DNA of 46,148 nucleotides from positions 1-46,148 of the forward strand of contig CALVGN010000019.1 of assembly GCA_944327105.1 (NCBI GenBank), in the 5' to 3' direction. This document shows, piece by piece, positions 3,458 to 43,830 of the stretch. This stretch comes from an uncultured Erysipelotrichaceae bacterium. GTDB lineage: Bacteria > Bacillota_I > Bacilli_A > Erysipelotrichales > Erysipelotrichaceae. Every line of letters begins with the position of its first letter. Position 1 is the first letter of the stretch. Below the pieces are notes generated by a model. The model made no database searches. It saw only the letters and a list, made by a program, of their open reading frames with translations, and had not been told where the DNA came from. The position numbers and the translations under genes are program-made.

Positions 3458-3464
3458 CAAACCA

Positions 3465-5942: not shown

Positions 5943-5970
5943 GATCCCATGGTTTGACCATGGGATTTTT
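5943..5970 (+). terminator. Terminator after rplT containing the dispersed palindrome
   Basis: ATCCCATGGT (5944-5953) pairs with ACCATGGGAT (5957-5966) around a three-base loop, followed by five T. Positions 5949-5961 are an exact copy of ATGGTTTGACCAT. Confidence 0.9.
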
Positions 5971-11618: not shown

Positions 11619-12854
11619 ATGTCGAATTTGAAGGTTTTAAAAAATCGCAATTATGCGTTGCTGGTGATCGCAAATGGGATCAACCGTCTGGGTGATGCTG
11701 TCGATGCTGTGGCATTAACCTGGTTGGTCTATGATGTCAGTAACAGTGCATCATTATCGGCGATAAATTTTGCGATCAATTATCTACCAACTGTATGTTT
11801 ACAACCGTTGATCGGTGCGTTTGTGACCAATCAAAGCAAACAGAAAATGATGGTGCTTTCCGATTTAGCACGCGGGATCGTTGTGGGGTTGTTGGCGGGT
11901 TTGACCATGATGCAGATGGTCCAACCATGGATGATCATTATTTCAACATTTCTTTTAAGTCTTTTTGAAACATTTCGATTGCCCAGTGCCAATGCCATGA
12001 TTCCGCTATTGATCAAAAAAGAGCAATATCATACCGGAATCTCGGTATCATCGAGTGTATCGAAAATGTTTGAATTGATTGGGTCTGGTATTGCTGGAGC
12101 CATCATTGCGCTATGTGGTACAGGCACAGCTGTTTTGATCGATTGCTTTTCATTTTTTGCCAGTGCATTTTTATTATCCTTGATTCGTGTATCTGAAGAT
12201 CTTGGTCCAACCACAGCCAACGTGGTTTCTCAGATCAAATTGAATTTGATTGATGGATTCCATTATGTCACCACTTCAAAGGTATTGATGATCCTGTGTG
12301 GTCTGACCATGATCGCGAATATGATGTTGGTGCCGTTCAATGCGTTGCAATCTGCATTTATCGATCAATGTTTTCATGGTAATGCCATTTATCTGTCCGT
12401 GATTTCCACTTGCTTATCCATTGGTTCATTGATCGGTGCTGCTTTGTATGCTAAAGCAAGTCAGATCCTGACATCGAAAACCATGATCTTGATGCTTTTT
12501 CCATTATGTGCATTTTATTATCTGGCTCAATTGAGTGTATCGATGCTGTCCATTACGGGTTTTGTGATCATTTTATTGGGACTTATCAATGTGATCAGTG
12601 GGATTTGTGTTGGTATCGGTAATTGTGAACTGGCGGTCAGTGCAATGAATCGATGTGATCAACATTACCTATCACGGGTGTCTGCAGTGCTCAATGCTTG
12701 TGGGACGACAATGATACCACTGACATCCATGATCATTTCTGTGGTCAGTACCAGTGTGAGCGTATCGATGATTTTTCTGGTCAGTGGTATACTCATGATC
12801 GGAATCGGCATTGTTGCATGGAAAGATGAAAGGATGGACGTGTTGAATGGTTGA
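11619..12854 (+). CDS. MFS efflux transporter
   Basis: This 411-residue inner-membrane protein is of the MefA/DHA type. It begins NRNYALLVIANGINRLGDAVDAVALTWLVYDVS, the usual first two helices, and shows about 12 hydrophobic segments with a basic loop after helix 2. It probably exports a drug or toxic metabolite by proton exchange. The start follows AAGAGG by nine bases. It overlaps the ArsR-like gene by eight bases, so the pair is translated together. The substrate is unknown. The promoter carries an inverted repeat suited to autoregulation. Confidence 0.86.
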   Translation: MSNLKVLKNRNYALLVIANGINRLGDAVDAVALTWLVYDVSNSASLSAINFAINYLPTVCLQPLIGAFVTNQSKQKMMVLSDLARGIVVGLLAGLTMMQMVQPWMIIISTFLLSLFETFRLPSANAMIPLLIKKEQYHTGISVSSSVSKMFELIGSGIAGAIIALCGTGTAVLIDCFSFFASAFLLSLIRVSEDLGPTTANVVSQIKLNLIDGFHYVTTSKVLMILCGLTMIANMMLVPFNALQSAFIDQCFHGNAIYLSVISTCLSIGSLIGAALYAKASQILTSKTMILMLFPLCAFYYLAQLSVSMLSITGFVIILLGLINVISGICVGIGNCELAVSAMNRCDQHYLSRVSAVLNACGTTMIPLTSMIISVVSTSVSVSMIFLVSGILMIGIGIVAWKDERMDVLNG

Positions 12855-13863
12855 ACCAATGCTTTATGAAACGCCATGCTGGATGGATGAAGCGTTGAAT
12901 TATGCTAAGCGAAAGGTCAATGGGATCAAATATAACCATGATGATCGATTGATCGATCCAGATAAGGCGAAACGTATGGATACTCAAATCCAGACACTGG
13001 ATTCGATAACGATCCACTATCCGGAATTATTTACATGGTTGAACCATACCCAAATCACATTCGCTGATATTTTATTGCATTCCTATGGTTTGACCATGGA
13101 AGATATGGTTAAACCCGATTTTAAACCACGACTGATTCAAGCCATGGAGCACATCATTCAATCCAAAGTCGGTACGGTCACATTGGAACACTATCTGGAT
13201 TTTGACCTGGAACATCCCACTCAACCATTATTGGATGGTTTGATGAAACTATCATTGGATGATGCGGACAAACTGAAGCTCATCGATGTGCTGTTTCATC
13301 CATCAAAATCCATTGACCATCTGATCGAATCACTGGATCCATTGATCCAAACCATTCAATCCCTGGTTGAAACCATCGATATCCAACCGTATCTCAATCA
13401 TTTCAAATCTGAAGATGCGCTCAAATTCCTGGACAATGCCAACGTCATGGTCCATGGTCCGATCATCGTTTTCCCATCTTTGATCAATCATCGCACACTT
13501 GCCGTCAATATCACCCCGAAGGAACAGATCGTTGTGATCAGTGGTCTTTCCATCGATTTCAACCAACTATCCCATTTTGATTTTTATCAAGATGAAATGG
13601 ACATGCGGCTTGAAAACTTAAGTAAAGTGTTGGCGGATAAAAGCAAGATGAAATTGATCGCCTTATTGAAAACCAAACCGATGTATGGTGCACAACTTGC
13701 AGCTGCGATGCATCTGAAACCGTCAACGATCTCTTATCATCTGGATACATTGATGAATGCCGGTATGGTCAAGACCAGGCGGGAAAATAATCGGATATGG
13801 TTTGAATATGACAAAGACCATACATTGATGCTTTTAGATGATTTACGGCATTATTTTGAATAG
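12847..13863 (+). CDS. ArsR-type winged-helix regulator with long N-terminal sensor
   Basis: This 338-residue protein has a C-terminal ArsR-like winged helix (LSKVLADKSKMKLIALLKTKPMYGAQLAAAMHLKPSTISYHLDTLMNAGMVKTRRENNRIWFEYD, about 255-325). The 250-residue N-terminal part resembles the DUF5937-type region of large ArsR regulators and could sense the transporter's substrate. Its ATG lies in an almost exact copy of the dispersed palindrome, which also contains the TGA stop of the MFS gene. The most direct role is repression of this operon at the inverted repeat at 11556-11604. An alternative start at 12859 would remove four residues. Confidence 0.82.
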   Translation: MVEPMLYETPCWMDEALNYAKRKVNGIKYNHDDRLIDPDKAKRMDTQIQTLDSITIHYPELFTWLNHTQITFADILLHSYGLTMEDMVKPDFKPRLIQAMEHIIQSKVGTVTLEHYLDFDLEHPTQPLLDGLMKLSLDDADKLKLIDVLFHPSKSIDHLIESLDPLIQTIQSLVETIDIQPYLNHFKSEDALKFLDNANVMVHGPIIVFPSLINHRTLAVNITPKEQIVVISGLSIDFNQLSHFDFYQDEMDMRLENLSKVLADKSKMKLIALLKTKPMYGAQLAAAMHLKPSTISYHLDTLMNAGMVKTRRENNRIWFEYDKDHTLMLLDDLRHYFE

Positions 13864-14096: not shown

Positions 14097-14114
14097 CCAT
14101 GGTTGGACCATGGG
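14097..14114. repeat. Extended copy of the dispersed palindrome
   Basis: CCATGG-TTGGA-CCATGG with flanking C/G pairs gives CCCATGGTTGGACCATGGG. Its core is ATGGTTGGACCAT. It has no T run and sits directly before the terminator hairpin. Confidence 0.7.
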
Positions 14115-14186: not shown

Positions 14187-17135
14187 TTGTTTCTAAAACG
14201 AATTGAAATGCAAGGATTCAAATCCTTCGCAGATCGTGTCACAATCGAATTTGAACATGAAATCACCGGCGTGGTCGGACCAAACGGCTGTGGTAAATCC
14301 AATATCACCGATGCCGTACGCTGGGTATTGGGTGAACAAAGCGTCAAAAATTTACGTGGTTCCAGCATGAGCGACGTCATTTTTGCCGGTTCTGCCGATC
14401 GCAATAAAGTCAACATGGCTGAAGTCACCCTGGTATTCGATAATTCCAACCATGCCCTAAATTCCGACAGTGATGAATTGGAAGTCACTCGACGTTTATA
14501 TCGTGACAGCGGGGAAAGCGAATATCTGATCAATCGCCGCAATGTCCGTCTGAAAGACATATTGGATCTGATCGTCGATACGGGTTTAGGTAAAGATTCT
14601 TTATCCATGATCAGTCAAGGCAACGTCGTATCCTTTGCCGATGCACGTCCGATCGACCGCCGTGCGATTTTTGAAGAAGCCGCCGGTGTGGCCAAATACA
14701 AAAAACGCAAGATCGAAACATTATCCCGCTTGCAACGTACCAAAGACAATATGGATCGTTGCGCCGATATCGTCAATGAATTGAGCCGCCAGGTCGGACC
14801 GCTTGAAAAAGCCGCCGCCAAGGCAAAGATCTATCACGAAAAAAAGCAACGCCTCCAGCAAATCGAAGTGGCCGTGTTGGTCAATGAGATCGGCGAATTA
14901 CAAAATGCATTAAGCAATTATAAAAACCAACTGGAAGATCTAGAAGCCCAGTATACGATGATCAAAGCCACCGTCAATCTCAATGATACGGCTGCGTATT
15001 CCACTAAAAAGCAGGTCAATGATCTGGATAAATCCATCAATTCTCTGCAGGAAAATCTCATGCATACGCTCAATGACATCCAACGCCTTGAAACCAGCAA
15101 GATCAAAATGGATGAGCAACGCAAATATTTGATCGAGCAGGGGACCAGCGAGCAAAAAGTCGCCGAATTACGTCACTCCTTAAGTCAAAGCAAATTGGAA
15201 TACGAAGATCGTGCCCAACGTTATGTGGATTTGAAAAACCAGCAGGATCTGATCAATACCCAATTGCAGCAGGCCGCTTCCACATTCGGTGAATATACCC
15301 AGCAACGCTTCGATCTTCAAGCCAAGATCAATCGACTCAACGCCCGTGTGGCGGTATTGGAAAACAATTTGCGTGCACCCTATGCCCACCAAGCCGGCGT
15401 GCAGGCGATCATGGACCACCAACATGCATTAAGCGGTGTATTGGGAGTGGTCGGATCATTGTTACAAGCCCATGAAGGCTATGAAAATGCCATCTCCATG
15501 GCACTGGGTGGTGCGATCAACCATATCGTCACTCACGATGAAGCATCCGCCCGCAATGCCATTGAATTTCTCAAACGCAATCGCAGCGGCCGGGCTACTT
15601 TTTATCCACTAACTGTCTGTCGAGCACATTATCTGAATCGAGATCATGAAATCATTGCCGAAAATGCGAAAGGGTATCTTGGCGTGGCTGCGGATTTTGT
15701 CAGCTGTGATCCAAAATATGATCCCGTGGTTGAATCACTGTTAGCCAATGTCATTGTCGTGGATACGCTTGAACATGGCAATGAATTGGCCCGATTGCTC
15801 AATTTTGGATATAAAATCGTCGATCCGGACGGGGATGTCATCCACCGTGGCGGTTCCATGAGTGGTGGTTCCTTCAAGCAAAACAATTCTATTTTTACGG
15901 CTAAAAAAGATTTATCCGATGCCAAGGATCAGCTCAACAGTGCCAAGGCATCGCTGGATCTTTTGGAAAATCAGATCAATGATCTTTCCGACAAACGCCA
16001 CAGTCTGGATGCGTCCCGAATGAATCTGTCCATCGATCTGGCTCAATTGGAACCCATCGTTGCAGCTAAAAAAGCGGCTTATTTAAGGATCCAGAGTGAA
16101 TTGGAACAACTCGATCCATCTGTCGATGGTAAAACCATATCCAACGATAATGATCAACATGTCAATGCATTGATCAATCAATTGAACAGTGCATATGCCA
16201 AACGGGATGAGATCAGCAGTGAGATCAAAAGCAAGCGCGAACAGCGCATCCGTCTTTCGGCAGAAGCCGAGCGCAAGGATGCACAAAATCGCGCCAGCCG
16301 TACGCAGATCGATGAACTCAATTCCAAGATCAATACCATCAAAGTGGAGATGGCCAAACACTCCACCAAACTGGATGGGGATTTGAATCGATTGGCTAGT
16401 GAATATGCATTGACCTATGATTATGCCAAGGAAAATGTGGATCTGACCATCGCTGCCGATACCAACGAAGAAGTGGTACGGCTGCGTCGGGATATCGATG
16501 CTTTGGGCAATGTCAACATGAATGCCCCGTATGAATATGAGCGGGTCAATGAACGCTATACCACTTTAAAAAAACAATTGGATGATCTGACCATTGCCCG
16601 CAATAAGATATTGGATGCCATCGATGAGTTGGACAGTGTCATGGAAACCCAGTTCAAATCTATGTTTGATGCGATCAATACCAAATTGGATGGGATCTTC
16701 AAACAATTGTTCGGCGGTGGTAAAGCTCGACTCATTCTGGAAGATCCAACCGATCTGCTCAATACCGGTATCGATATCGATGTCCAACCACCCGGTAAAT
16801 CCGTACGCAACATCCGTCTTTTTTCCGGAGGAGAAAAGTCATTGATCGCCTTATGTGTCTTATTTGCCATTCTATCCGTCAAAAGCGTACCGTTGGTCAT
16901 ATTCGACGAAGTGGAAGCGGCATTGGATCAGGGCAATGTTGAACGGTTTGCTAAATTCATCGCCCAATTTACACATCAGACCCAGTTTATTGTGGTGACG
17001 CACCGTCCCGGTACAATGGAACAATGCCAGGTTTTATATGGTGTGACCATGCAGAAACAAGGTGTCTCACAAATGCTGAAAGTCGAACTCAAACAGGCCA
17101 TCGATCTGGCCAATAGCGATCAACAAGGAGGTTAA
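14187..17135 (+). CDS. smc: Chromosome segregation ATPase SMC (short coiled coil)
   Basis: SMC organises and segregates the chromosome together with ScpA and ScpB. The Walker A motif GPNGCGKSNIT (about 30-40), two coiled-coil arms, a hinge (about 400-500, GVLGVVGSLLQ... ALGGAINHIV) and the C-terminal signature LFSGGEKSLIAL (about 877) with Walker B VPLVIFDEVEAALD (about 900) are all present. At 982 residues it is about 200 shorter than the usual 1,180. Both arms are shortened and no domain is missing, so the arm length is reduced. The start is TTG, chosen because GGGAGG lies six bases upstream. It is followed after four bases by ftsY and ylxM, a common Firmicute order. Confidence 0.96.
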   Translation: MFLKRIEMQGFKSFADRVTIEFEHEITGVVGPNGCGKSNITDAVRWVLGEQSVKNLRGSSMSDVIFAGSADRNKVNMAEVTLVFDNSNHALNSDSDELEVTRRLYRDSGESEYLINRRNVRLKDILDLIVDTGLGKDSLSMISQGNVVSFADARPIDRRAIFEEAAGVAKYKKRKIETLSRLQRTKDNMDRCADIVNELSRQVGPLEKAAAKAKIYHEKKQRLQQIEVAVLVNEIGELQNALSNYKNQLEDLEAQYTMIKATVNLNDTAAYSTKKQVNDLDKSINSLQENLMHTLNDIQRLETSKIKMDEQRKYLIEQGTSEQKVAELRHSLSQSKLEYEDRAQRYVDLKNQQDLINTQLQQAASTFGEYTQQRFDLQAKINRLNARVAVLENNLRAPYAHQAGVQAIMDHQHALSGVLGVVGSLLQAHEGYENAISMALGGAINHIVTHDEASARNAIEFLKRNRSGRATFYPLTVCRAHYLNRDHEIIAENAKGYLGVAADFVSCDPKYDPVVESLLANVIVVDTLEHGNELARLLNFGYKIVDPDGDVIHRGGSMSGGSFKQNNSIFTAKKDLSDAKDQLNSAKASLDLLENQINDLSDKRHSLDASRMNLSIDLAQLEPIVAAKKAAYLRIQSELEQLDPSVDGKTISNDNDQHVNALINQLNSAYAKRDEISSEIKSKREQRIRLSAEAERKDAQNRASRTQIDELNSKINTIKVEMAKHSTKLDGDLNRLASEYALTYDYAKENVDLTIAADTNEEVVRLRRDIDALGNVNMNAPYEYERVNERYTTLKKQLDDLTIARNKILDAIDELDSVMETQFKSMFDAINTKLDGIFKQLFGGGKARLILEDPTDLLNTGIDIDVQPPGKSVRNIRLFSGGEKSLIALCVLFAILSVKSVPLVIFDEVEAALDQGNVERFAKFIAQFTHQTQFIVVTHRPGTMEQCQVLYGVTMQKQGVSQMLKVELKQAIDLANSDQQGG

Positions 17136-24327: not shown

Positions 24328-25235
24328 ATCTTTCCGGGATCACCATCGACAATCCGATCATCCCGGCCAGCGGTACCTTTGGTTACGGCATTGAATATCA
24401 ACGCTTCTATGACATCAATATTCTCGGCGCTTTCAGCTGCAAAGGAACCACACTCAATCCCCGCTATGGCAATCCACTACCACGGATCGCTGAATGTACA
24501 TCGGGCATGCTCAATGCAGTCGGATTGCAGAATCCGGGGATCGATCATGTCATCGATGTGGAATTGAAAGAACTGGCAACGTTTTATCACAAAAAAATAT
24601 TTGCCAACGTATCCGGTTTTTCCATCGATGAATATGTGCAAACCGCCATGCGGTTTGACAGCTGTGATATCGTTGGATGGATCGAATTGAATATCTCCTG
24701 TCCCAATGTCAAACATGGTGGATTGAGCTTTGGTACATCCCCAGATATGGCGGCGGAAGTGACCAATGCAGTCAAATCCAAGATCCATAAACCACTCTAT
24801 GTCAAACTTTCACCCAATGTAAGCGATATCGCCACTATGGCCAAGGCCGTCGAAAATGGTGGAGCGGATGGATTGGTCGTGGGGAATACCTTGACCGGGG
24901 CACGGTTTGACCTAGCCACCGGGAAACCGATTTTAACCAATATCACCGGTGGATTATCCGGTCCGGCACTATTCCCCATTGCATTGCGTTGTGTCTATCA
25001 ATGTGCCAAAGCAGTGGATATACCGATCATTGGATGTGGTGGGATCACTACAGCTCAAGATGTCATTGAAATGATATCGGCCGGTGCCAGTGCCGTAGAG
25101 GTGGGAGCTGCCAATTTAGTGGATCCCTATGCATGCTATCAACTGGTTCAATCATTACCGCAATGGTTAGACCATTACAATATCGAATCCATACAGTCAT
25201 TAACAGGGAGGTCATTACATTATGGAAACGAATAA
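24309..25235 (+). CDS. pyrD: Dihydroorotate dehydrogenase class 1B, catalytic subunit
   Basis: PyrD oxidises dihydroorotate to orotate. At 308 residues it is the class 1B form that works with PyrK and uses NAD. Motifs: PASGTFGYGIEY near the N-terminus, the active-site cysteine in NISCPNVKHGG, KLSPNVSDI, GNTLTGARFD and FMN-phosphate binding GCGGITTAQDVIEMISAGASAVEVG. Its start lies within the end of pyrK and its end overlaps pyrF by 14 bases, so the operon is tightly coupled. Confidence 0.97.
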   Translation: MGQLEVNLSGITIDNPIIPASGTFGYGIEYQRFYDINILGAFSCKGTTLNPRYGNPLPRIAECTSGMLNAVGLQNPGIDHVIDVELKELATFYHKKIFANVSGFSIDEYVQTAMRFDSCDIVGWIELNISCPNVKHGGLSFGTSPDMAAEVTNAVKSKIHKPLYVKLSPNVSDIATMAKAVENGGADGLVVGNTLTGARFDLATGKPILTNITGGLSGPALFPIALRCVYQCAKAVDIPIIGCGGITTAQDVIEMISAGASAVEVGAANLVDPYACYQLVQSLPQWLDHYNIESIQSLTGRSLHYGNE

Positions 25236-26585: not shown

Positions 26586-26614
26586 TCATTCGATGGTTTG
26601 ACCATAGGGTTAAC

Positions 26615-26649: not shown

Positions 26650-26667
26650 ATGATGGTTTGACCATCG

Positions 26668-28506
26668 TTATTGCTGGTTTAACCAAAGATCAAAGTCTCG
26701 ATCCAAGATATCAAAGGATAAATTCGGATGATCCAGGATGAAGGTATTGAATTGTACTTCATCATATGTATCTCCCAATGTATCCATGGCTTTATCCCGT
26801 AATGCATTGATCCGATAATACCCATAATAATATGACTGGAAAGCACAGGGATTGGCTTGTAATTGTTTATATTGGGTTTCGATACTACTGCTATCCATGG
26901 TCAAACCATAGTCACGCATCATCTCACCAAATTCATCCATGGTCATCCCATCATAATGAATGGCGATATCCGCTAAGATGATCACATAATAAACGATCAA
27001 TTGATTGGAAATATAAACTTGTTTGAATCCTTCACTCAAATCGGGTAAAAAATCCATCGAACCAAATTGGGCATACGTGGCATATCCTTCCGTATATGCC
27101 AGATTGTTGGCCATGAATTTCTGCCAGTTGGAATCGATATTTTCATACATGTACGCAAATTGATACATATGACCTGGATATCCTTCATGACAAACCGTCA
27201 TGTATGTATCCAGACTGGTTAAATCCGAACTAATGGGATTGACCCGCATCTGTTGAATGGTCGCACCATCGATCGGCGGGATGTTGAAATATGCCTGTAC
27301 ACCGCTGGTTGAAGCCAACGCTTCATTGATATCATAGATTTCATAATGCAGATCCGATATGGTTGGAACCACCGTATCCATATGATCTTCCGCATAATCC
27401 AATATCGCTTCATACGATTCAAAATCAGTTCGTGGCATTTCCATGGTATTGATAAACGCATCCAATTGCAGATCATCATCATACGCACTGATGGTTGTGA
27501 TCATCTTCATCATCTCATTGGAAATCGCTTGCTCCATCTCCGCTTTCATTTGATCCACTGTAATATCCGTGCCCACACTTTGTTTCAATAACAGTTCATA
27601 GTAGGACCGACCATTTTCCAGTGTGGCATAACCCCCATCATGATTGAGTGGGGCCAGTTCACTCAACGTATCATACATCGCCTGATAGCTTGGGATGAAA
27701 GAATCATAAAATGCATCGATCACTTGGGTAATGTAGTGGTCTTCATCATCGAGATCTAGATTGGTGATATTGGTGACCATCGCATCCAATACGGCCGATT
27801 CATCGGCCGTATCCAGCACGGATTGGATGTAATTGAGCACATCATCCATATCCGTCATCAACAAACCATTTTCCGCTTGTTTTTTGGTATAGTCCAATGC
27901 CGAATCCACATAGCGTTTCGTATCGTTGAGCAAACAAATCAAATCCACAACATCCGTTTCATCATCCAATCGATAATCCGAAAAAAACGAAGTCAGATTG
28001 TAATGCAGACCGGAAAGGGAACTGAACAACTGTCCATGATAGTCATAACGCGGATCGGATAACTGTTGATCCAACTCCATTTGGAACGCGTACATGTCAT
28101 AAAGATCCTGTTGGGATCTGGATAATGTATCCCGGTCAAATTCATTGAAAATCGAATATTCTTCTTGGTTGTGCAGGGCTACCGTTTCCGCTTCAGCCTG
28201 AGAAAATCCGATGCCAAGATCAACGTTGACATCATCCAGATCTATCCCAGCATTGGCTGGATCGATGTAATAGGCATGAAGGGTGGTAAAATCCCAGGTC
28301 AATGCATCCTTGAAGCTGGCTTCAAGGAATGCATTGAATGATGCATTCGCAGTATTTGACGATGGTTGATCCACAGATGGTGTGGTTTCGCTCACTGCAG
28401 TAGTTGCAGAAGGGATGGAAGTGGAAACACCATCAACCGTTGTGGAACAGCCACTCAATAACGTTAAACTCAATAGAAAGGATAAAGACTTTTTAAGTGT
28501 GTACAT
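26668..28506 (-). CDS. DUF885-family lipoprotein, probable zinc metallopeptidase
   Basis: This 612-residue surface lipoprotein has the lipobox LLSGC with cysteine 20, a Ser/Thr-rich linker, and the helical DUF885 domain. The family signature HEGYPGHMYQ is at about 440-449, resembling gluzincin-type metal sites. Further family pieces are EGYATYAQ and the C-terminal YYYGYYRINALRDKA. Members are considered metal-dependent peptidases, but few have been tested. The upstream GGAGG lies close to the ATG. It is monocistronic and divergent from the ABC transporter operon, with a paired palindrome between them. Confidence 0.86.
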   Translation of the reverse strand: MYTLKKSLSFLLSLTLLSGCSTTVDGVSTSIPSATTAVSETTPSVDQPSSNTANASFNAFLEASFKDALTWDFTTLHAYYIDPANAGIDLDDVNVDLGIGFSQAEAETVALHNQEEYSIFNEFDRDTLSRSQQDLYDMYAFQMELDQQLSDPRYDYHGQLFSSLSGLHYNLTSFFSDYRLDDETDVVDLICLLNDTKRYVDSALDYTKKQAENGLLMTDMDDVLNYIQSVLDTADESAVLDAMVTNITNLDLDDEDHYITQVIDAFYDSFIPSYQAMYDTLSELAPLNHDGGYATLENGRSYYELLLKQSVGTDITVDQMKAEMEQAISNEMMKMITTISAYDDDLQLDAFINTMEMPRTDFESYEAILDYAEDHMDTVVPTISDLHYEIYDINEALASTSGVQAYFNIPPIDGATIQQMRVNPISSDLTSLDTYMTVCHEGYPGHMYQFAYMYENIDSNWQKFMANNLAYTEGYATYAQFGSMDFLPDLSEGFKQVYISNQLIVYYVIILADIAIHYDGMTMDEFGEMMRDYGLTMDSSSIETQYKQLQANPCAFQSYYYGYYRINALRDKAMDTLGDTYDEVQFNTFILDHPNLSFDILDRDFDLWLNQQ

Positions 28507-28537
28507 AAAACCTCCGTGGCTTCATTGTACAAAAGAA

Positions 28538-28572
28538 ATGGTTGAACCATGAATCAACAATGGTTCAACCAT
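28538..28572. promoter_or_regulatory. Paired palindromes in a divergent promoter region
   Basis: ATGGTTGAACCAT (28538-28550) and its exact reverse complement ATGGTTCAACCAT (28560-28572) are nine bases apart. Each is a palindrome and the two can also pair with each other over 13 bases. Confidence 0.75.
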
Positions 28573-28691: not shown

Positions 28692-29702
28692 ATGATCAAA
28701 CCATTGCATGCTTTCTTGGCGATGTTATTGCCAATATCCCTGAGTGCTTGTGCATCCGCGGATGCTTCAACCACACCAACCTCAACACCATCTATTGATT
28801 CTTCGGTTTCCGTTGGGATGATCCAATATATGGAACATGGTTCACTCGATGCCGCCAGTGAAGGATTTATCGATGGTTTGGCCGATCAAGGATATGTCGA
28901 AGGGGAAAATCTATCGTTGAACCAAAACAATGCCCAAGGCGATGCCTCCAATGCCGACGCCATCGTTTCACGCTTTGTCAACGATAACGTGGATCTGATC
29001 TTTGCGAATGCTACACCCGCTGCCCAAACGGCTGCGGCTAAAACCATGGATATCCCCATCATCATCACCTCGGTGACTGATCCGGCAGAAAGTGGGTTGG
29101 TCCAATCCAATGAAAACCCGGGTGTCAATATCAGCGGGACCAGTGATATGGCGGATATCGAAACACAGATTGATCTGGTGACCCAGCTGTTGCCGGATGT
29201 CTCCACCATCGGGATCATGTACTGTTCGGCGGAAGCCAACAGTCAGATTCAGGCTGAATTGGCCAAAACCACTATCGAATCCCTTGGTTTATCCTGGAAG
29301 GAATATACCGTATCGGATTCGACCTATATCCAATCCACTGTGCAAAGTGCGATCGGCAATATCGATGTGTTGTTCGTTCCGACTGATAATTTGATGGCTG
29401 AATCGATCGCTGCCATTACCGGAGTCGCCAATCAATCCGGTTTACCAGTGATCACCGGGTTCGGTGATGCGGTCGAACAAGGGGCATTGGCTTCTTATGG
29501 TGTGGATTATTATCAAGTCGGTTATCTGGCTGGTACCATGGCAGCTAAAGTGCTTAATGGTCAAACCATCGAAACCATGCCGATCGGTTATCTGGACGAA
29601 GAGGACTATGAGTTGATGATCAATACCACCGTATTGAATGATCTTGGTCTGACCATTCCCGAAACCCTGGCCAATTCGGCGATCTTGTACGAAGGAGAAT
29701 AA
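28692..29702 (+). CDS. ABC transporter substrate-binding lipoprotein, TrpX type (first copy)
   Basis: This 336-residue protein binds a small ligand outside the membrane and delivers it to the downstream permease. The signal peptide ends with lipobox-like LSAC (cysteine about 20), followed by a Thr/Ser/Pro linker and the two-lobed fold: SVGMIQYMEHGSLDAASEGFIDGL, FANATPAAQTAA, IIITSVTDPAESGLV, and GFGDAVEQGALASYGVDYYQVGY. These match the PF04392/TrpX family, often linked to tryptophan or tyrosine uptake. No T-box leader is visible, so the ligand is uncertain. A paralogue starts five bases later. Confidence 0.88.
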   Translation: MIKPLHAFLAMLLPISLSACASADASTTPTSTPSIDSSVSVGMIQYMEHGSLDAASEGFIDGLADQGYVEGENLSLNQNNAQGDASNADAIVSRFVNDNVDLIFANATPAAQTAAAKTMDIPIIITSVTDPAESGLVQSNENPGVNISGTSDMADIETQIDLVTQLLPDVSTIGIMYCSAEANSQIQAELAKTTIESLGLSWKEYTVSDSTYIQSTVQSAIGNIDVLFVPTDNLMAESIAAITGVANQSGLPVITGFGDAVEQGALASYGVDYYQVGYLAGTMAAKVLNGQTIETMPIGYLDEEDYELMINTTVLNDLGLTIPETLANSAILYEGE

Positions 29703-29707
29703 GGATA

Positions 29708-30700
29708 GTGAATAGCTTTAAACGTTTCGCTTTTGCATCGTTAGCAGGGTGCTTGTCGATCTTAAGCGGTTGTAACAGTCAAACCAATACCAGTGTTGAT
29801 GATGGTTTGACCATCGGGATCATCCAATATGCGCAACACCCGGCTTTAGATGATGCCAGAGATGGTTTTATCGATACGCTCAATGCCAATGGATACGATG
29901 ATTCAACCATCACCATTAGTGAATACAATGCCCAAAACGATCCCAGCAATGTGGAAACCATTGCCAACACCTTGGTCAATGCCAATGTGGATCTGATCTA
30001 TGCCATCGGCACCCCGGCCGCGCAAGGTGTCGCTGCTAAAACCACATCGATCCCCATCATCATTTCTGCGGTCACTGATCCGGCCGCCAGCGGCCTGGTT
30101 GAAACCAATGAACTTCCCAATACCAACATCAGCGGTACATCCGATGCCTCCGATGCGTCGGTATTGGTCGATCTGTTAACGCAAATCGTTCCGGATGCCA
30201 CTACGGTCGGCATCATGTATTGTTCCAGTGAAGATAACAGTACGATCCAAGCGCAAACTTATCAGACATTGCTGAATCAAAAAGGCATCAATGTGGAGAT
30301 TTTCACCGTTTCCGATAGTGCCAGTGTGCAAAGTGTAGCAGAAAGTGCCAATGGCAAAGTCGATGCCATGATGATCCCCACCGATAATCTGATGGCGCAA
30401 ACCATGCCACTTGTGGCTTCTACGCTCAATAGTTTTGGGATCCCGACGATCGTTGGTGAACCCGCATTGGTGGAAAACGGTGGTTTGACCACGGAAGGGA
30501 TCGATTACTATCAATTGGGTGTGGAAAGTGCATCGATGGCAATCGATGTGCTCAATGGTACGGATATTTCGACCATGCCGATCTATTTTGCACCCAAAGA
30601 TCAATTGCAGCGTTGCTTCAATACCGATACCATCGCTGCCCTTGGTCTAACCATCGATCCATCCCTGATGGAAAATGCCACCCTCTATCCACTCGATTGA
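29708..30700 (+). CDS. ABC transporter substrate-binding lipoprotein, TrpX type (second copy)
   Basis: This 330-residue paralogue of the preceding protein has the same motif order: LTIGIIQYAQHPALDDARDGFIDTL, YAIGTPAAQGVAAKTTSIPIIISAVTDPAASGLVETNE, and GIDYYQLGVESA. The lipobox is LSGC (cysteine 22). The start is GTG after AAGGA, only five bases past the first copy, indicating a tandem duplication that has diverged. A DGLT stretch near residue 33 is encoded by an exact copy of the dispersed palindrome. The two proteins may give one transporter two ligand specificities. Confidence 0.88.
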   Translation: MNSFKRFAFASLAGCLSILSGCNSQTNTSVDDGLTIGIIQYAQHPALDDARDGFIDTLNANGYDDSTITISEYNAQNDPSNVETIANTLVNANVDLIYAIGTPAAQGVAAKTTSIPIIISAVTDPAASGLVETNELPNTNISGTSDASDASVLVDLLTQIVPDATTVGIMYCSSEDNSTIQAQTYQTLLNQKGINVEIFTVSDSASVQSVAESANGKVDAMMIPTDNLMAQTMPLVASTLNSFGIPTIVGEPALVENGGLTTEGIDYYQLGVESASMAIDVLNGTDISTMPIYFAPKDQLQRCFNTDTIAALGLTIDPSLMENATLYPLD

Positions 30701-31729: not shown

Positions 31730-32516
31730 AATCGAACATCTGTCCAAAACATTCAATGGTCATACCATCAATGAACGCAAAGCCCTCAATGATATCAATC
31801 TGACCTTAAATGACGGGGATTTTGTCACAGTGATCGGTGGCAATGGTGCCGGTAAGAGCACATTGCTCAATATGATCGCAGGGGTCTATCCGATGGATAG
31901 CGGCAAGATCATTTTGGATGATATCGATATCTCGTTGATGCCCCAATCCAAACGTGCGCGCTATATCGGCCGGGTATTCCAGGACCCCATGATGGGAACC
32001 GCCGCCGATATGCAGATCGAAGAAAATCTGGCTTTAGCCAGACGTCGCGGATCAAAACGTGGATTGGCTTGGGAAGTCAGTGAGGCAGAGCGTCAGCAAT
32101 ACCGTCAATTGCTTCGATCATTGGATCTGCATCTGGAAGATCGTTTGACGCAACAAGTCGGTTTATTATCCGGTGGTCAGCGCCAGGCATTGACGTTATT
32201 GATGGCAACGTTGATCAAACCATCTTTATTACTGTTGGATGAACATACGGCTGCATTGGATCCAAAAACGGCTGCCAAAGTATTGGAATTGACGGAATCA
32301 CTGGTCAAAACGCATCATCTGACCACGTTGATGATCACCCATAATATGAAAGATGCCATTCGACTGGGCAATCGATTGATCATGATGCATGAAGGAAGAA
32401 TCATCTTTGAAGCCGATGGTCCAACCAAATCCAACTTGACCGTGGAAGCATTGCTTGAAAAGTTCGAATCCGCATCCGGCCAACAATTGAGCAACGATCG
32501 GATGCTTTTGGTCTAA
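31722..32516 (+). CDS. ABC transporter ATP-binding protein, TrpZ type
   Basis: This 264-residue ATPase powers the transporter. Walker A is GGNGAGKSTLL (about 39-49), the signature LLSGGQRQALTLL lies near 146-158, Walker B is LLLLDEHTAALDP and the switch histidine is in TLMITHN. It starts within the end of the permease gene after AAAGGAG. It is the last gene of the operon; no clear terminator follows before the next promoter-like TATAAT. Confidence 0.94.
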   Translation: MLRIEHLSKTFNGHTINERKALNDINLTLNDGDFVTVIGGNGAGKSTLLNMIAGVYPMDSGKIILDDIDISLMPQSKRARYIGRVFQDPMMGTAADMQIEENLALARRRGSKRGLAWEVSEAERQQYRQLLRSLDLHLEDRLTQQVGLLSGGQRQALTLLMATLIKPSLLLLDEHTAALDPKTAAKVLELTESLVKTHHLTTLMITHNMKDAIRLGNRLIMMHEGRIIFEADGPTKSNLTVEALLEKFESASGQQLSNDRMLLV

Positions 32517-33514: not shown

Positions 33515-34495
33515 TTGAAACGCTACGAAGACGATTTCAGTGAATCCCCGTTTGAAAATATGCGGGAATTAAGTCGAAAACATAAACGGAAAAGCAAAAA
33601 ACAAAAAAAAGAAAAAGCTCAAAGGGAAGTGGTCGAACCATCGGATCGTATCAATCGCAGTGAAAACAAAGCCTATTCCAATACGATGACCAAACGATTG
33701 ACGGTAATGGTGATCATTTTGATTCCGTTGATTTTGATCGCACTTATGGTTTTATTGATGCAAAACAAAGATCAATCGGAAGTGGTTCAACCATCGCCCA
33801 CACCATCCCTGATACCAACCAGTACCCCGACACCATTGCCTACTCCAACGGCTGAACCAACTTTTGATACCAGTGGTTATGACACGACATCATTTGGTTC
33901 CACCACGCAGATCGTGAATAAAAAACATCGTCTCGATTCATCCGATATCCCAGATGATATGGTGGTGATCGACATGCCGGCAACCATTGCCGATATGACC
34001 GTCAAGCGGGAAGTCAATGATGCATTGAATCTGCTCTACGCTGATGCATCCAATGCCGGCATCGATTTATATGTCAATACCGGTTATATTGGTTATTACT
34101 ATCAAGCAACATTGTTTGATCAATATGTTGATACGGCAGGGTATGACTATGCATTAAAGATCCAACCACGCCAGGGATATAGTGAACACCAGACCGGTTA
34201 TGCGGTGGATTTCATCTCCAGACAGAATGGTAAATACACCCGATATAATGATTCGGATCGTTCATCCTGTGCACCGCAGGAGTGTGAAGGAAATGATGCG
34301 GCCATCTGGTTGAGTGAACATGGCCATGAATATGGGTTTATCCAACGTTATCCCAAAGGAAAAGAAGAAATTACCGGATATGATTCCCAATGGTGGCATT
34401 ACCGTTATGTGGGAGTGGATGTCGCAACATATATGCATGAGCATGGTTTGACCATGGAAGAAGCATTCAATGTGGAAGGAGGAGATTATCAATGA
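33515..34495 (+). CDS. VanY-family D,D-carboxypeptidase-like membrane protein
   Basis: This 326-residue cell-envelope protein has a basic cytoplasmic tail, one membrane helix (MVIILIPLILIALMVLL), a Pro/Thr linker and a VanY peptidase domain. The zinc motif SEHQTGYAVDF (SxHxxGxAxD) and the third-ligand region QWWHYRYVG are seen. The usual EPWH reads QWWH, so the conserved glutamate is glutamine. I chose TTG 33515 because AAGGAGG ends nine bases upstream; GTG 33506 overlaps that site. Family members trim D-Ala from peptidoglycan stems. It overlaps the FemAB-like gene by four bases. Confidence 0.88.
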   Translation: MKRYEDDFSESPFENMRELSRKHKRKSKKQKKEKAQREVVEPSDRINRSENKAYSNTMTKRLTVMVIILIPLILIALMVLLMQNKDQSEVVQPSPTPSLIPTSTPTPLPTPTAEPTFDTSGYDTTSFGSTTQIVNKKHRLDSSDIPDDMVVIDMPATIADMTVKREVNDALNLLYADASNAGIDLYVNTGYIGYYYQATLFDQYVDTAGYDYALKIQPRQGYSEHQTGYAVDFISRQNGKYTRYNDSDRSSCAPQECEGNDAAIWLSEHGHEYGFIQRYPKGKEEITGYDSQWWHYRYVGVDVATYMHEHGLTMEEAFNVEGGDYQ

Positions 34496-35739
34496 GTGGA
34501 AAGTATCAGTTTGTAACACAGATCGATCCTACGATCTATGATGATTTTGTATCTCAACACTCCTTGCGCAATATTTCCCAATACCGCCAATGGGCGGTAT
34601 TGAAACCGGCATGGACCAGTTTTATCTGTGGTATGACCAGTAATGATGCGCTCGTTGCCAGTGCATTGGTATTGGTGCGCAGTCAATACGGGTTCAAGAT
34701 GGCTTATTGTCCCCGTGGTCCGATCATGGATTATACCAATGTGAATCTGGTTCGATCATTTTTAAAATCATTGCGTTTATATTGTGCCGATCAGGGAATA
34801 TCCACATTGATTTTTGATCCCAATGTCATCGTCAATTCCGTCAGTATCAAAGAAAAAGGGAATGCAGATGCATTCGATGCATCGTGGTTGCTGGATACGA
34901 TATTGGATGATCACCACATCCATTTTCGTGGTTTTACCAAAGATATCGAAGCCACCACATTACCACGCTATAACCTGGCAATGGATCTAAACCAGGATAT
35001 GGAAATGGTTTTACCCAAAAAAACCAAAGAGAAGATCCATCATTATGATGGCCATGGTTTGACCATATCTGCCTGTCAAGACAGCCAACGGTTTTATGCC
35101 ATGGTCAGTTACACTGAAAAACGCAAAGGCATTGCGTTGCGCAATGCCGACTATTTTCAAACGTTATTGACCCAATACCCATCCAGTACCATTTTGATGG
35201 CCACATTGGATTGTGATACGACCATCGACTATCTTAACGCATTAAAAGTCCAGTATGAAAGCAAACTGGAACTGTATCGACAAAGTGCTCCCAAGAAAAG
35301 CAAGCAATGGCAAAATCAGATCGATCGGATCGTCAAGGAGATCGAAGAAACGGAATCGTTGAAACATCAATATGGTTCAACCATCGATGTTGCTGGTCTG
35401 CTTTTAGTTCATGATGGTAAAAACTGTGAGTTGCTTTACTCCGGTTTGAATGAAGATTTTAGAAAATACCATCCAGCGTATGCGTTACGCTATCACGCAC
35501 TGCTTTGGGCGAAACAACACGGATGCCAATGGTTCAACTTCGGTGGGGTGGAAGGTACATTGGACGATGGTCTGTTCACCTTCAAAAGTGCGTTCAATCC
35601 CACGATCAATGTCTATATCGGTGAATTTGTCATGGCGTGCAGATGGAGCAATATTTTATTTGAAAAAGGATTGCCCTTGCTTCGCAAGTGGCGGGACAAA
35701 GCGATTGCCAAAAATAAAAAGGAAGGGAATCGTCTATGA
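34492..35739 (+). CDS. FemAB/MurM-like peptidoglycan aminoacyltransferase
   Basis: This 415-residue protein would add amino acids from aminoacyl-tRNA to the peptidoglycan stem to build the interpeptide bridge. It has two GNAT-like halves and a helical arm (LELYRQSAPKKSKQWQNQIDRIVKEIEETESLK, about 265-300), as in FemA/FemX. Family segments include YCPRGPIMDY, KTKEKIHHYDGHGLTI, YALRYHALLWAKQHGCQWFNFGGVEG and FKSAFNPTINVYIGEF. The ATG overlaps the stop of the VanY-like gene (ATGA), so the two are coupled, fitting a shared cell-wall role. An exact palindrome copy encodes HGLT. Confidence 0.9.
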   Translation: MSGKYQFVTQIDPTIYDDFVSQHSLRNISQYRQWAVLKPAWTSFICGMTSNDALVASALVLVRSQYGFKMAYCPRGPIMDYTNVNLVRSFLKSLRLYCADQGISTLIFDPNVIVNSVSIKEKGNADAFDASWLLDTILDDHHIHFRGFTKDIEATTLPRYNLAMDLNQDMEMVLPKKTKEKIHHYDGHGLTISACQDSQRFYAMVSYTEKRKGIALRNADYFQTLLTQYPSSTILMATLDCDTTIDYLNALKVQYESKLELYRQSAPKKSKQWQNQIDRIVKEIEETESLKHQYGSTIDVAGLLLVHDGKNCELLYSGLNEDFRKYHPAYALRYHALLWAKQHGCQWFNFGGVEGTLDDGLFTFKSAFNPTINVYIGEFVMACRWSNILFEKGLPLLRKWRDKAIAKNKKEGNRL

Positions 35740-36326: not shown

Positions 36327-36343
36327 GTATGGTTCGACCATTG

Positions 36344-37062: not shown

Positions 37063-37945
37063 GATCATTCACCTTTTGGATATTGGAAAAATGCAGTTTG
37101 GCCACATGATAGAGCATGGTGGGACCATGTTTATCCATGATTTTTCGAATATCTTCATCCACAAGCTTACCGGCACCTTTATGCAAAGCAATACCGATCT
37201 GTTCACTCAATTGATCCATGGCTTTTAAAAACGTATAACGGGCGATCAAAGAAGCACAGGCGACGGATAGATATTGATGCTCGGCTTTGGTTTTGAATGT
37301 TAAACCACGAATAATGGTGGTCTGACCATTCAAATAATGGTAATAACTGGTTTCCGGTGTGAATTGATCCACCACACATAAATGGGGTAATTGATGGATC
37401 TTTTCTTTTAATTTGACATAAGCATGATTGTGCAATATGGCTTTTAACGCATTGAGGTTATATGTTTGATGCATTTGGTTGTATTTGGCATTATCCAATA
37501 CCAATACACTGTAAGGACAAGTTTTCATGATGGTCGGGACCACATTGATAATGGTGGTATCATCCATGGATTTGGAATCATCGATATGATAGGGCTTCAA
37601 TTGGTGTGCCATGGTCTTATCCACATATACCGCACTGACAACGACTGGACCAAAGACATCCCCGGTACCGACTTCATCACTGCCGGCTTGGGGATAGATG
37701 GTTTGAACCATCGTATCCTGGGAATTTAGTAATCGTGCAATGGATGGATGATCATCCATCCATTGCGATAACTGATTTCCCTGAAAGACCACTTTGTTGG
37801 ACGTATAAACCGAGATGGTGATCCCATCCGCTTTATACAGTGTTTGGATATACGGGTTGGGGGATGGATATACCAATAAATCCTTTAGGGTAGATAATTG
37901 ATGGATGGTTTGATCGTCCCATTGGACGGAAATTACATTGCTCAT
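37055..37945 (-). CDS. rnhC: Ribonuclease HIII
   Basis: RNase HIII cuts the RNA of RNA-DNA hybrids. It has 296 residues with an N-terminal substrate-binding region (about 1-80) and the catalytic motif AGSDEVGTGDVFGPVVV (about 87-103). Further pieces are DDSKSMDD, VVDQF and ACASLIARY. It is divergent from cvpA-mutS2, a neighbourhood also seen in Bacillus. The ATG has no ribosome binding site; an extended -10 (TGCTAGACT) ends seven bases upstream, so translation is probably leaderless. Confidence 0.95.
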   Translation of the reverse strand: MSNVISVQWDDQTIHQLSTLKDLLVYPSPNPYIQTLYKADGITISVYTSNKVVFQGNQLSQWMDDHPSIARLLNSQDTMVQTIYPQAGSDEVGTGDVFGPVVVSAVYVDKTMAHQLKPYHIDDSKSMDDTTIINVVPTIMKTCPYSVLVLDNAKYNQMHQTYNLNALKAILHNHAYVKLKEKIHQLPHLCVVDQFTPETSYYHYLNGQTTIIRGLTFKTKAEHQYLSVACASLIARYTFLKAMDQLSEQIGIALHKGAGKLVDEDIRKIMDKHGPTMLYHVAKLHFSNIQKVNDHA

Positions 37946-38728: not shown

Positions 38729-41038
38729 ATGGATCAAAACCATGAATTTCAAACCATACTCAATACCATCTCATCTTATGGTCAAACCGATCTTGGCAAA
38801 GCGTTGATCACTTCCACCCAACCGGTTTTTTCCCGTTTGATCATCAAACGGGATTTAATGCGTTTAAAACAAGCCATGCAATGGTTGAACCAAGGCTATG
38901 ATGTGGACTTGATCCAATCCATCGACATCACCCCTGAACTGACTCAAGTATCCAAAGGGTATATCCTGACGGCGATCCAATTGCTGAAGATATTGAAGGT
39001 TGCCCGTGCGATCGTGGCATTGCGCAAAAGCTTTGCTGCTCATGATGAAGTGGCTATTGATGCATTGGATGATCTGATCGATACGTTGATGGTTGAACCA
39101 TCGTTTATTGCGGCATTGATGAAAATCATCGATGATGCCGGAGAAGTGCGGCCGGATGCATCAAACGTATTAAGTGATTTATACAGTCAATACGATATCG
39201 TCAAAAACCGATTTGATCGCATGGTCAAATCATTTCTTGATACCCATTCTGCCAGTCTGCAGGAACATTTCACTACCTTAAGGGATGGCCGGTTGTGTGT
39301 ATTGGTGATCAACAGCGATAAAAACAAATTCCGCGGCTTTCAACACGGCACTTCCGCTTCCGGTGCCGCAGTGTATATCGAACCGGAAAGTTTTGTACGT
39401 TATAACAATGAATTGGTCAACATCCAGGATGGTATTGACCAGGAAATCCATCGGTTGTTGACGGAAGCATCTTTATTGGTTTTAAACCACAAGGATAATT
39501 TATCCGCCAATGTGGAAACGATGGCCATCATCGATAGCATTTTTGCCAAAGCCCGTTGGGGAGTGGCCAATGGGGGATGTGTGGCGGAATTGATGGAAGA
39601 TGAAAAAGGATATGCATTGGTTCGCGTTCGCCATCCATTGCTAGATGTGAAAAAAGCAGTGGCCAATACCATCGAATGCATGGGCGAAAAACGCATTATT
39701 TTGATCACCGGTGCCAATACGGCCGGTAAGACGGTATTGCTGAAAACCATTGGATTATCGTTTATGCTGATGGCCTCCGCTATTCCTGTATTGGCCGATC
39801 AAGCACGTCTGTGCTTGATCGATACCATTTTGGATGATGTGGATGATCAACAATCCATCATCGAATCGTTGTCCACATTCTCAAGTCATGTGCTCTCCTG
39901 GAAAAATGCGATCGAAAAGGCAACGCCACGTTCGTTGGTTTTGTTGGATGAATTGGGCAGCGGCACAGATCCGAAAGAAGGGGCTGCATTGGGCCAGGCA
40001 TTGTTGGAACGATTGATGGATATCGGCTGCTTGGTGGTGGCAACCACCCATTTTCAATCCATCAAGGAATATGGTCTGACCCAACCGCTCATTCTTGAAG
40101 CCAGTATGGAATTTGATCGGAAAACACTCAAACCGACCTATCGCTATATTGCCGGCTCATTGGGAACCTCCTATGCGTTTGAGATCGCATTGCAGTATGG
40201 TTTGGACCAAGATCTGATCGATCGTGCCATTGCATTAAAAGCCGATGCGGAAAGTAAAGCCGAACAGCTGATCAAAGTCTTATCTGCCAAACAGATCGAG
40301 CTCGACCAAGCCAAAGTCGCATTGGAACAAAAAGAATCTGATCTGGAAAATGAATATCAGCAGAAATTAAATCAACTGGAAGCCGATAAAGCCAAATTAC
40401 AGACCGAATATGATGCATTGGTTGAAACCAACCGCAAAACCATTGCCCGCACGCAACAGAAACTCAATACATTGATCAATGAACTTAAACGCAAACCGGA
40501 TCTAAAACGAGTGGATCAGATCAAAACGGAAGCCAGATCGATCGAAATGGTTGAACCATCGAAATCGCTTGAACCATTGCAACACGGGGATTATGCCCGT
40601 TTGGAAGGCAGCAATGCCATCGTCAAGATCATATCCATCCGCAATAACAAAGTGGATGCGTTGCTCAATGGTAAAACCATCCATACCACATTGAATGCTT
40701 TGACCAAAGTCTCCAATAGTATGGCCATGGTTTCAACCACGTCTAAAAAGAAACATACCCCAAAACCTGCACGCAATGAATTTATACCTGTAGCTTTTGA
40801 TGCTCGCTTGAATTTACTTGGACAAACGGTGGAAGAGGGCACACAGGCCGTTGCGGCATTCATTGATAAAGCGTTGGTGGCCAACCAAAAACGCATTGTG
40901 ATCATCACCGGTGACGGTACCGGCCGCTTGCGCAGCGGCATCCACGATTACCTGCGACATAATCGTTTTGTCGACCATTTTGAATTGGCCGCGCGAAGCG
41001 AAGGGGCAAGTGGCGCCACGGTGGTATACTTGAAATAA
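38729..41038 (+). CDS. mutS2: MutS2 ATPase with Smr domain
   Basis: MutS2 acts on branched DNA and collided ribosomes and limits homologous recombination. It has 769 residues, close to the usual 780. A core clamp region comes first, then Walker A (ITGANTAGKTVLLKT, about 326-340), LLDELGSGTDPKEGAALGQALLE with Walker B, a coiled coil (about 510-600) and a C-terminal Smr domain (about 694-769). In that domain the usual L-D-hydrophobic-R/H-G reads LNLLG and the usual HGxGTG reads TGDGTG, so the catalytic Asp and His are missing. AAGGAGG precedes the ATG. One base separates it from uvrC. Confidence 0.95.
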   Translation: MDQNHEFQTILNTISSYGQTDLGKALITSTQPVFSRLIIKRDLMRLKQAMQWLNQGYDVDLIQSIDITPELTQVSKGYILTAIQLLKILKVARAIVALRKSFAAHDEVAIDALDDLIDTLMVEPSFIAALMKIIDDAGEVRPDASNVLSDLYSQYDIVKNRFDRMVKSFLDTHSASLQEHFTTLRDGRLCVLVINSDKNKFRGFQHGTSASGAAVYIEPESFVRYNNELVNIQDGIDQEIHRLLTEASLLVLNHKDNLSANVETMAIIDSIFAKARWGVANGGCVAELMEDEKGYALVRVRHPLLDVKKAVANTIECMGEKRIILITGANTAGKTVLLKTIGLSFMLMASAIPVLADQARLCLIDTILDDVDDQQSIIESLSTFSSHVLSWKNAIEKATPRSLVLLDELGSGTDPKEGAALGQALLERLMDIGCLVVATTHFQSIKEYGLTQPLILEASMEFDRKTLKPTYRYIAGSLGTSYAFEIALQYGLDQDLIDRAIALKADAESKAEQLIKVLSAKQIELDQAKVALEQKESDLENEYQQKLNQLEADKAKLQTEYDALVETNRKTIARTQQKLNTLINELKRKPDLKRVDQIKTEARSIEMVEPSKSLEPLQHGDYARLEGSNAIVKIISIRNNKVDALLNGKTIHTTLNALTKVSNSMAMVSTTSKKKHTPKPARNEFIPVAFDARLNLLGQTVEEGTQAVAAFIDKALVANQKRIVIITGDGTGRLRSGIHDYLRHNRFVDHFELAARSEGASGATVVYLK

Positions 41039-42825: not shown

Positions 42826-43830
42826 ATGGATAAGAAAATCATGAAAAATCGACTGCTCTTCACCCTGGTGTTGATTGGTATTACCATATCCTGCCTTGGC
42901 TTTATGAACCTGCATTTTGATCGACTTAGTCGCTACCCGTATCAAAATGAAGCAGATCGGGCATTGATCAATCAGTATCTCAATGATGAAGAGATCGAAT
43001 ATATCATTGAATATTCCATTGCACCGATGCAATTTGTCCAATATCTGGGATGCAGTGGATTCAACATTTACCATATTGCCGAATATAACCAATTGAGTTC
43101 CTATATGGGGTATGGTTTGGCATGTGAAATGGTTTCCAGAGTGGAATTGACCAGAGATCAGGTGGATGTGCCGACTTTAGCGGCATTGATGAACGTCTAT
43201 CCATGGGATGTCGTGGATTTTTGGTTTACTTACCATGATATCTACAATCCAAATGCCATTCTGGTTTCGAATCCAAAATCATTGACGGCAGTGGTGGATA
43301 CCAATTATACCGTGAGCAAATACCGTCCCAATGATCTGGTTTTTCTCAATGAGGATATTCCTCAAAGTGAAGCAGTTCGCGTATCTTCACGCATGGTTGA
43401 ACCATTGATGCAGATGTGTGATGCATTAGAAAATACGTTTGACCAACCCTGCGGTGGTTTGACCATTACAGACGGATATATCGATTACGATACTCAGGTC
43501 GAACTGTATACCCAGGCTCAGACCAACTATGGGGATCAAGCATCGATCTATTGCGATTATCCTGGGCACAGTGAACATCAACTGGGTTTAGCCATCGATA
43601 TCGCATTAAACGATGGTTCAAAATTAAACGACAGTGATGTCTATGCATGGTTGCTCAATTATTCCGACGTATTTGGTTTCCACTTTACGTATGATGGCAC
43701 CAGCAGTTCATCCATGATGGCACCCCGCCCCAACCATTTACGCTATAACGGGATATGCTCGGATAAAGTGATCCCCACAACATCTGATCAAATCGATGAA
43801 ACAGCAGCCGCTGATGAATCCTTGCATTAA
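42826..43830 (+). CDS. VanY-like D,D-carboxypeptidase-fold protein, divergent
   Basis: This 334-residue protein has one N-terminal membrane helix (LLFTLVLIGITISCLGF), a helical middle part and a C-terminal VanY-like domain. The motif SEHQLGLAIDIA supplies zinc ligands and PNHLRYNG the third histidine. The EPWH glutamate is not present. YMGYGLACEMV and VPTLAALMNVYPWDVVDFWF precede the domain and are of unknown function. It is probably an envelope protein. The ATG has no Shine-Dalgarno sequence and a TAGAAT lies nine bases upstream, so expression may be leaderless. Confidence 0.84.
   Translation: MDKKIMKNRLLFTLVLIGITISCLGFMNLHFDRLSRYPYQNEADRALINQYLNDEEIEYIIEYSIAPMQFVQYLGCSGFNIYHIAEYNQLSSYMGYGLACEMVSRVELTRDQVDVPTLAALMNVYPWDVVDFWFTYHDIYNPNAILVSNPKSLTAVVDTNYTVSKYRPNDLVFLNEDIPQSEAVRVSSRMVEPLMQMCDALENTFDQPCGGLTITDGYIDYDTQVELYTQAQTNYGDQASIYCDYPGHSEHQLGLAIDIALNDGSKLNDSDVYAWLLNYSDVFGFHFTYDGTSSSSMMAPRPNHLRYNGICSDKVIPTTSDQIDETAAADESLH

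Follow-up and report, generated by a model that had tools for sequence, protein, structure and literature searches.

The DNA analysed here, called the window, is a stretch of 46,148 nucleotides from an uncultured Erysipelotrichaceae bacterium whose genome comprises 1,614,838 bases in 59 contigs. Between two divergently transcribed genes lies a pair of 13-base elements, ATGGTTGAACCAT and its exact reverse complement ATGGTTCAACCAT, with 9 bases between them. Open reading frames and domain matches confirm the flanking genes as a DUF885 gene and a TrpX-like substrate-binding gene. The features of the locus are as follows; the arms are given without strand.

26668 to 28506, minus strand: DUF885 (PF05960) putative lipoprotein gene, ATG at 28506 (open reading frame and domain match)
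28524 to 28529, minus strand: TACAAT, possibly the -10 box for DUF885 (read by eye)
28538 to 28550: first arm, perfect site ATGGTTGAACCAT, its center 38 bp upstream of the DUF885 start codon (sequence)
28560 to 28572: second arm ATGGTTCAACCAT, its center 60 bp upstream of the same start codon (sequence)
28692 to 29702, plus strand: ABC transporter substrate-binding gene (PF04392, TrpX-like), first of an ABC operon (open reading frame and domain match)

Each arm is itself a palindrome, the central base excepted, and the dyad centers of the two arms are 22 bp apart, corresponding to two helical turns. A promoter consensus scan at the pair found no full promoter, and no terminator-like tail was found there. 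If TACAAT serves as the -10 element then the -35 element would fall inside the first arm, and binding there would block the DUF885 promoter. In named genomes the substrate-binding protein has relatives at 12 loci, each of them Lachnospiraceae or Eubacterium; at 37-45% identity these are too distant for an intergenic comparison.

The motif in the window and the genome

An earlier note had described the arms as the only exact tandem pair in the window. This holds for a pair with 13 of 13 matching bases, but other spaced pairs exist, such as that at 26653-26665 and 26674-26686, spaced by 21 bp. Two perfect 13-mers are paired twice in the genome, in the window and at C27:50351. The second of these (L043:10351-10385, equivalent to G000:C27:50351-50385) lies between two genes, and its second arm runs on into a longer inverted repeat. 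Matches to the single 13-mer exceed chance. Allowing up to two mismatches it has 83 matches in the window against 3.6 in shuffled sequences, and there are seven exact copies when both strands are counted. TGGT-N3-ACCA (TGGTNNNACCA) occurs 69 times in the window, of which 30 are ATGGTNNNACCAT, and TGGT-N4-ACCA (TGGTNNNNACCA) occurs 27 times. Sites located by the motif scan, again without strand, are these.

3453 to 3465: ATGGTCAAACCAT
5949 to 5961: ATGGTTTGACCAT, within a longer inverted repeat that has T's after it and resembles a terminator
6926 to 6938: ATGGTCAAACCAT
7944 to 7956: ATGGTTATACCAT
11916 to 11928: ATGGTCCAACCAT
13035 to 13047: ATGGTTGAACCAT
13085 to 13097: ATGGTTTGACCAT
14099 to 14111: ATGGTTGGACCAT
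16126 to 16138: ATGGTAAAACCAT
17038 to 17050: ATGGTGTGACCAT
25163 to 25175: ATGGTTAGACCAT
26593 to 26605: ATGGTTTGACCAT
26653 to 26665: ATGGTTTGACCAT, in a 21-bp pair with 26674-26686 (motif scan and pair distances)
26674 to 26686: CTGGTTTAACCAA, partner of the 26653-26665 site (pair distances)
26897 to 26909: ATGGTCAAACCAT
27257 to 27269: ATGGTCGCACCAT
29557 to 29569: ATGGTCAAACCAT, within the substrate-binding protein gene
29802 to 29814: ATGGTTTGACCAT
31756 to 31768: ATGGTCATACCAT
34443 to 34455: ATGGTTTGACCAT
35054 to 35066: ATGGTTTGACCAT
35372 to 35384: ATGGTTCAACCAT
36329 to 36341: ATGGTTCGACCAT
37116 to 37128: ATGGTGGGACCAT
39089 to 39101: ATGGTTGAACCAT
40547 to 40559: ATGGTTGAACCAT
40668 to 40680: ATGGTAAAACCAT
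43393 to 43405: ATGGTTGAACCAT
44289 to 44301: ATGGTCGAACCAT

Genome-wide, TGGTN{3,4}ACCA is present 3,150 times, compared with 210 for a reversed-pattern control. This is a density of ~1,950 per Mb, with one site per ~510 bp (~1.9 per kb). In 15 relatives the counts of the same pattern range from 0 to 121, with reversed controls equally large, the zero coming from a genome whose sequence was not readable. The form ATGGTYNRACCAT occurs 532 times with none for the reversed control, and none of 461 relatives has more than 7. The maximum of 7 occurred among 116 relatives, and 6 was the maximum elsewhere, among 392 genomes drawn from across the phylum (that of the window included, and 345 of them new). 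Among the genomes compared, from which other species of the same genus were absent, the iteration is confined to this one. No other iterated gapped palindrome of comparable frequency emerged when one readable stretch from each of 19 relatives was scanned (18 kb in one case, 20 kb in the others). Six viral contigs share the paired motif, and since each has just 2-4 sites in the stretch examined this appears chance-like. To call the pair the best regulatory candidate in the window, as the earlier note did, is thus an understatement because the motif is spread across the whole chromosome, and the pair is an especially perfect instance of it.

The shape of the motif was determined in a sample of 675,521 bases (42% of the genome) that includes the window. 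After setting aside the DISARM stretch (L041) discussed below, there were 872 exact matches with a spacer of 3 and 377 with a spacer of 4, against a mean of ~44 for spacers of 6-20. Enrichment is seen only at these two lengths, the 4-base form making up 30% of sites in the genome, and the logo is TGGT-Y-N-R-ACCA, with the Y-N-R preference in the spacer accompanied by a preference for A ahead of TGGT. Of the one-mismatch forms, change of the second G to A is enriched (437 vs 119), as is change of the last T to C (170 vs 54); at the first G no change is tolerated (G to A, 16 vs 16). Such selective tolerance resembles a profile of recognition more than the outcome of neutral decay. TGAT-N3-ACCA is enriched 3.7-fold and first-G changes are not, so that a graded series of affinities may exist beside the 3,150 exact sites.

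Sites are also paired at a preferred distance. Center-to-center separations of 20.5-22.5 bp were found for 18 and 16 pairs in two independent samples, where longer distances predict 3.9 and 4.2. Together this is 34 pairs where 8.1 were expected (Poisson P ~1e-11), a 4-fold excess over the sampled 42% of the genome. The peak is the same when the partner has one or two mismatches (29 vs 4.7 and 69 vs 16.7 at exactly 21 bp), and it is present both within and between genes. Long-range helical phasing of the distances is weak. This helical spacing is what cooperative dimers bound on one face of the DNA would predict, and neither methylation nor DNA uptake predicts it.

Sites with the 3-base spacer occur at 1.56 per kb between genes and 1.22 per kb within them. 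Their density is even along genes, and 73% of 413 genes of at least 600 bp carry a site. In a profile resting on simple gene calls made for this analysis, the density rises to 4.2-4.9 per kb at 25-75 bp before start codons and to 5.5 per kb just after stops (0-25 bp), and gene ends may therefore be favored as well as promoters. Divergent gaps are modestly denser, at 2.72 per kb vs 2.04 and 2.23. At 17 of 204 intergenic sites, that at 5949-5961 of the window among them, the dyad continues for at least four further base pairs as a longer inverted repeat, in some cases with T's after it, so that terminators seem to be built on copies of the motif.

The iteration is also visible in the encoded proteins. 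Genic sites with the 3-base spacer prefer one frame (521 of 700), in which they read Gly-X-Thr. In 539 predicted proteins Gly-X-Thr is found at 1.64 times expectation and Thr-X-Gly at 0.97 times, and peptides of the form [DHNY]GxT[IM] number 194 compared with 9 in the reverse order.

One 20-kb stretch (L041, G000:C25:1-20000) has only two sites, with a G+C content usual for the genome. Genes for DISARM (DrmA, B, C, D and MII) lie here beside a type III restriction-modification system in which the methyltransferase is divided between two frames; the stretch is presumably an acquired island. The remaining sampled part of the same contig has the normal density. Two other stretches, L044 and L057 of G000:C30, have 0.75-0.85 sites per kb, which is under half of the average, and L044 has no site with the 4-base spacer.

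A candidate reader of the FadR type

In sequence the iterated motif is a textbook operator of the FadR type of GntR regulators. The box given for the FadR subfamily in PMC4494728 is TKGT-N3-ACMA, with a gap between GT and AC that is usually three bases and sometimes two, and the PdhR box appears in PMC7660256 as AATTGGTnnnACCAATT. The genome encodes five GntR-type proteins. Among three that were scanned one, of 237-250 amino acids, joins a GntR helix-turn-helix (PF00392, E 3e-12) to an FCD domain (PF07729, E 5e-6), and the two outside the scan, of 242 and 249 amino acids, look HutC-type by eye. The FCD gene lies outside the window at G000:C27:11405-12157, following infB and rbfA and beside a convergent recombinase-like gene. 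Two sites lie back to back ahead of the FCD gene, 34 and 21 bp from its ATG and following a -10-like TACAAT. This double site (L042:11371-11394 on G000:C27) is spaced by 13 bp and so differs from the 21-bp pairs found elsewhere. Each of the remaining four GntR genes has at most one site in the 150 bp upstream, and a single site near any gene is weak evidence because the sites are so dense in this genome.

Homologues of the FCD protein were sought in 272 genomes of the family, and were found at E <=1e-8 in 23 besides that of the window. Eighteen of these 23 are full-length homologues with 26-38% identity and E <=1e-21, 16 from genus g32 and two from g21, so that few independent lineages are represented. 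All 18 have an exact TGGTN3ACCA within 200 bp upstream, one in five cases and two in 13; for three of them no in-frame start codon was found and the start of the alignment was taken instead. Together these 18 loci (64.6 kb) contain 31 exact sites, every one of them in the promoter of an FCD homologue, and none of these promoter sites has the 4-base spacer. The g32 proteins and the FCD protein of the present genome have in common the recognition helix S-K-S/T-x-V-H. Two homologues from the sister family (L077 and L078, E ~2e-19) have no exact site, which counts against a broader rule. Among five weak homologues (L144-L148), no upstream site was present in the three checked; of the other two, one locus has no exact site and L147 has a site elsewhere.

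In g32 the FCD homologue lies between a divergent FAD-dependent oxidoreductase gene and a convergent citrate synthase gene (named by eye). At two of the g32 loci, L127 and L133, two sites lie ~100-110 bp apart at the FCD homologue, an arrangement that suggests the ancestral target and maybe looping. In 15 stretches from homologue-bearing genomes there were 37 sites in 253 kb, a number that partly includes the promoter sites, compared with the ~1.9 per kb of the present genome. Because the motif in related bacteria lies mainly ahead of one regulator gene, it seems that an ordinary local switch has been turned into a chromosome-wide feature.

We consider it probable that the pair is a double site for a single FadR-type (GntR-FCD) protein, whose operator has been multiplied to ~3,150 copies that are read cooperatively over the chromosome. 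A dimer of the FCD protein would occupy each palindrome TGGT-Y-N-R-ACCA, including those with the 4-base spacer, and neighboring dimers two helical turns apart would cooperate on the same face of the DNA. The operator would have spread through changes made in place within one lineage. What in related genera appears to be a local, self-controlled regulator might act here as a sequence-specific binder of the whole chromosome, in the manner of a nucleoid protein, while sites located in promoters would give local effects. With ~3,150 sites to fill, a transcription factor would need thousands of monomers. At the pair in the window, which lies in the densest zone before start codons, the FCD protein would cover the likely -35 region and repress DUF885. 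The earlier note had left the choice between a two-site operator and a hairpin, and our analysis favors the operator. The fuller proposition, that a local FadR-type factor has been turned chromosome-wide, with its 11-bp operator iterated ~3,150 times in situ, altering encoded amino acids, and with copies two turns apart acting cooperatively, we regard as evenly poised between right and wrong. If true, an ordinary regulator can pattern a whole chromosome and bias its proteome.

Alternative explanations and known systems

Some DNA-binding protein of the genome other than the FCD protein might read the same palindrome. The choice of the FCD protein as reader comes from the type of motif and the promoter sites, and members of other DNA-binding families could in principle recognize the same sequence. 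However, the sole FadR-type gene has a double site in its promoter, for all 18 full-length homologues the promoter is the one part of the locus in which the motif is found, and another reader is in our view unlikely. Less likely still is a methylation-linked palindrome like HIP1, in which the motif is the target of an orphan methyltransferase and is maintained at high frequency by repair or selection. The density of ~1,950 per Mb is within the 1,000-2,000 per Mb given for highly iterated palindromes (HIPs) in PMC4390886, and the genome does have some methyltransferases. Searches of the genome with four methyltransferase families (PF01555, PF02086, PF00145 and PF02384) nonetheless gave no good candidate. 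There is no MethyltransfD12 protein; the only N6_N4 and C5 methyltransferases sit in the DISARM and type III island with its two sites in 20 kb, the N6 enzyme being the split one; and outside the island there are just a type I HsdM on contig C3 and a weak match on C48. Two spacer lengths, preferences beyond the core and pairing at 21 bp suit protein dimers and not an enzyme site, and the core here is 50% GC where the HIPs in that paper are mostly GC-rich.

A DNA uptake sequence, favoring import of DNA from kin as in Neisseria and Haemophilus, would have a like copy number and a like location in coding DNA. It would also fit the near absence of the motif from the presumably foreign island and the copies that form terminator-like inverted repeats. 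But the motif matches an operator in the promoter of a regulator of related genera, and the 21-bp pairing would have no role in uptake. Known uptake sequences (DUS and USS) are, moreover, not palindromic. We therefore judge this explanation very unlikely. The motif might instead act in RNA, whether in termination, attenuation or processing. Exact complementarity between the two arms would let the pair fold into a 13-bp hairpin, spacers of 3 and 4 bases suit hairpin loops, and the extended intergenic copies, some of them T-tailed, are of the expected form. If RNA pairing were at work then TGGT..ATCA on the sense strand, which can form wobble pairs, should be tolerated better than TGAT..ACCA, which cannot. 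The two are enriched alike (167 vs 57, 2.9-fold, and 218 vs 73, 3.0-fold). Since the tolerance of mismatches is symmetric between strands, and the sites lie throughout genes with no terminator at the pair, the RNA reading is largely refuted; we give it a very slight chance, and the hairpin proposed by the earlier note falls with it. Finally, the preference of genic sites for the Gly-X-Thr frame might point to a by-product of codon or amino-acid usage. This is refuted by an intergenic density that is as high as the genic one, and mirrored tripeptides are not enriched; its probability is close to nil.

The preferred reading, a FadR-type operator iterated over the chromosome, has points of likeness with several known systems. 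With operators of the FadR subfamily (PMC4494728 and PMC7660256) the motif shares its dyad, the 3-base spacer, an accompanying protein with GntR helix-turn-helix and FCD domains, a site in the promoter of the regulator that is kept in relatives, and double sites near divergent promoters. It differs in having ~3,150 copies rather than a local set serving a few operons, in lying inside genes too, in its 4-base spacers and in the frequent 21-bp pairing. The cyanobacterial HIP1 and its alternates, as described in PMC4390886, are likewise genome-wide, lineage-specific palindromes at ~2,000 per Mb that lie in coding DNA, and they go with methyltransferases. The present motif is interrupted, four of its eight fixed bases are G or C, no matching methyltransferase was found, and the candidate reader is a transcription factor. 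DUS and USS are alike in copy number and coding location, and are not known to be palindromic, whereas the motif here is a promoter operator in related genera. A search of the open-access literature found no transcription factor site iterated in this way.

Since HIP1 it has been an open question why a single short palindrome should be present thousands of times in some genomes. Here the candidate reader has a known fold and binding mode, and relatives keep the same protein with few sites, so that the question becomes testable. If the preferred reading is true, highly iterated palindromes include a class read by transcription factors and not by methyltransferases.

SlmA, Noc, MatP and ParB at parS are sequence-specific proteins that organize the chromosome, with tens to a few hundred sites. 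The likeness to them lies in a dimer that binds palindromes at many points of the chromosome; these proteins have fewer sites than are found here, and their sequences and protein families are different. In keeping with a nucleoid-type protein, the sites of the present motif lie chromosome-wide irrespective of gene boundaries.
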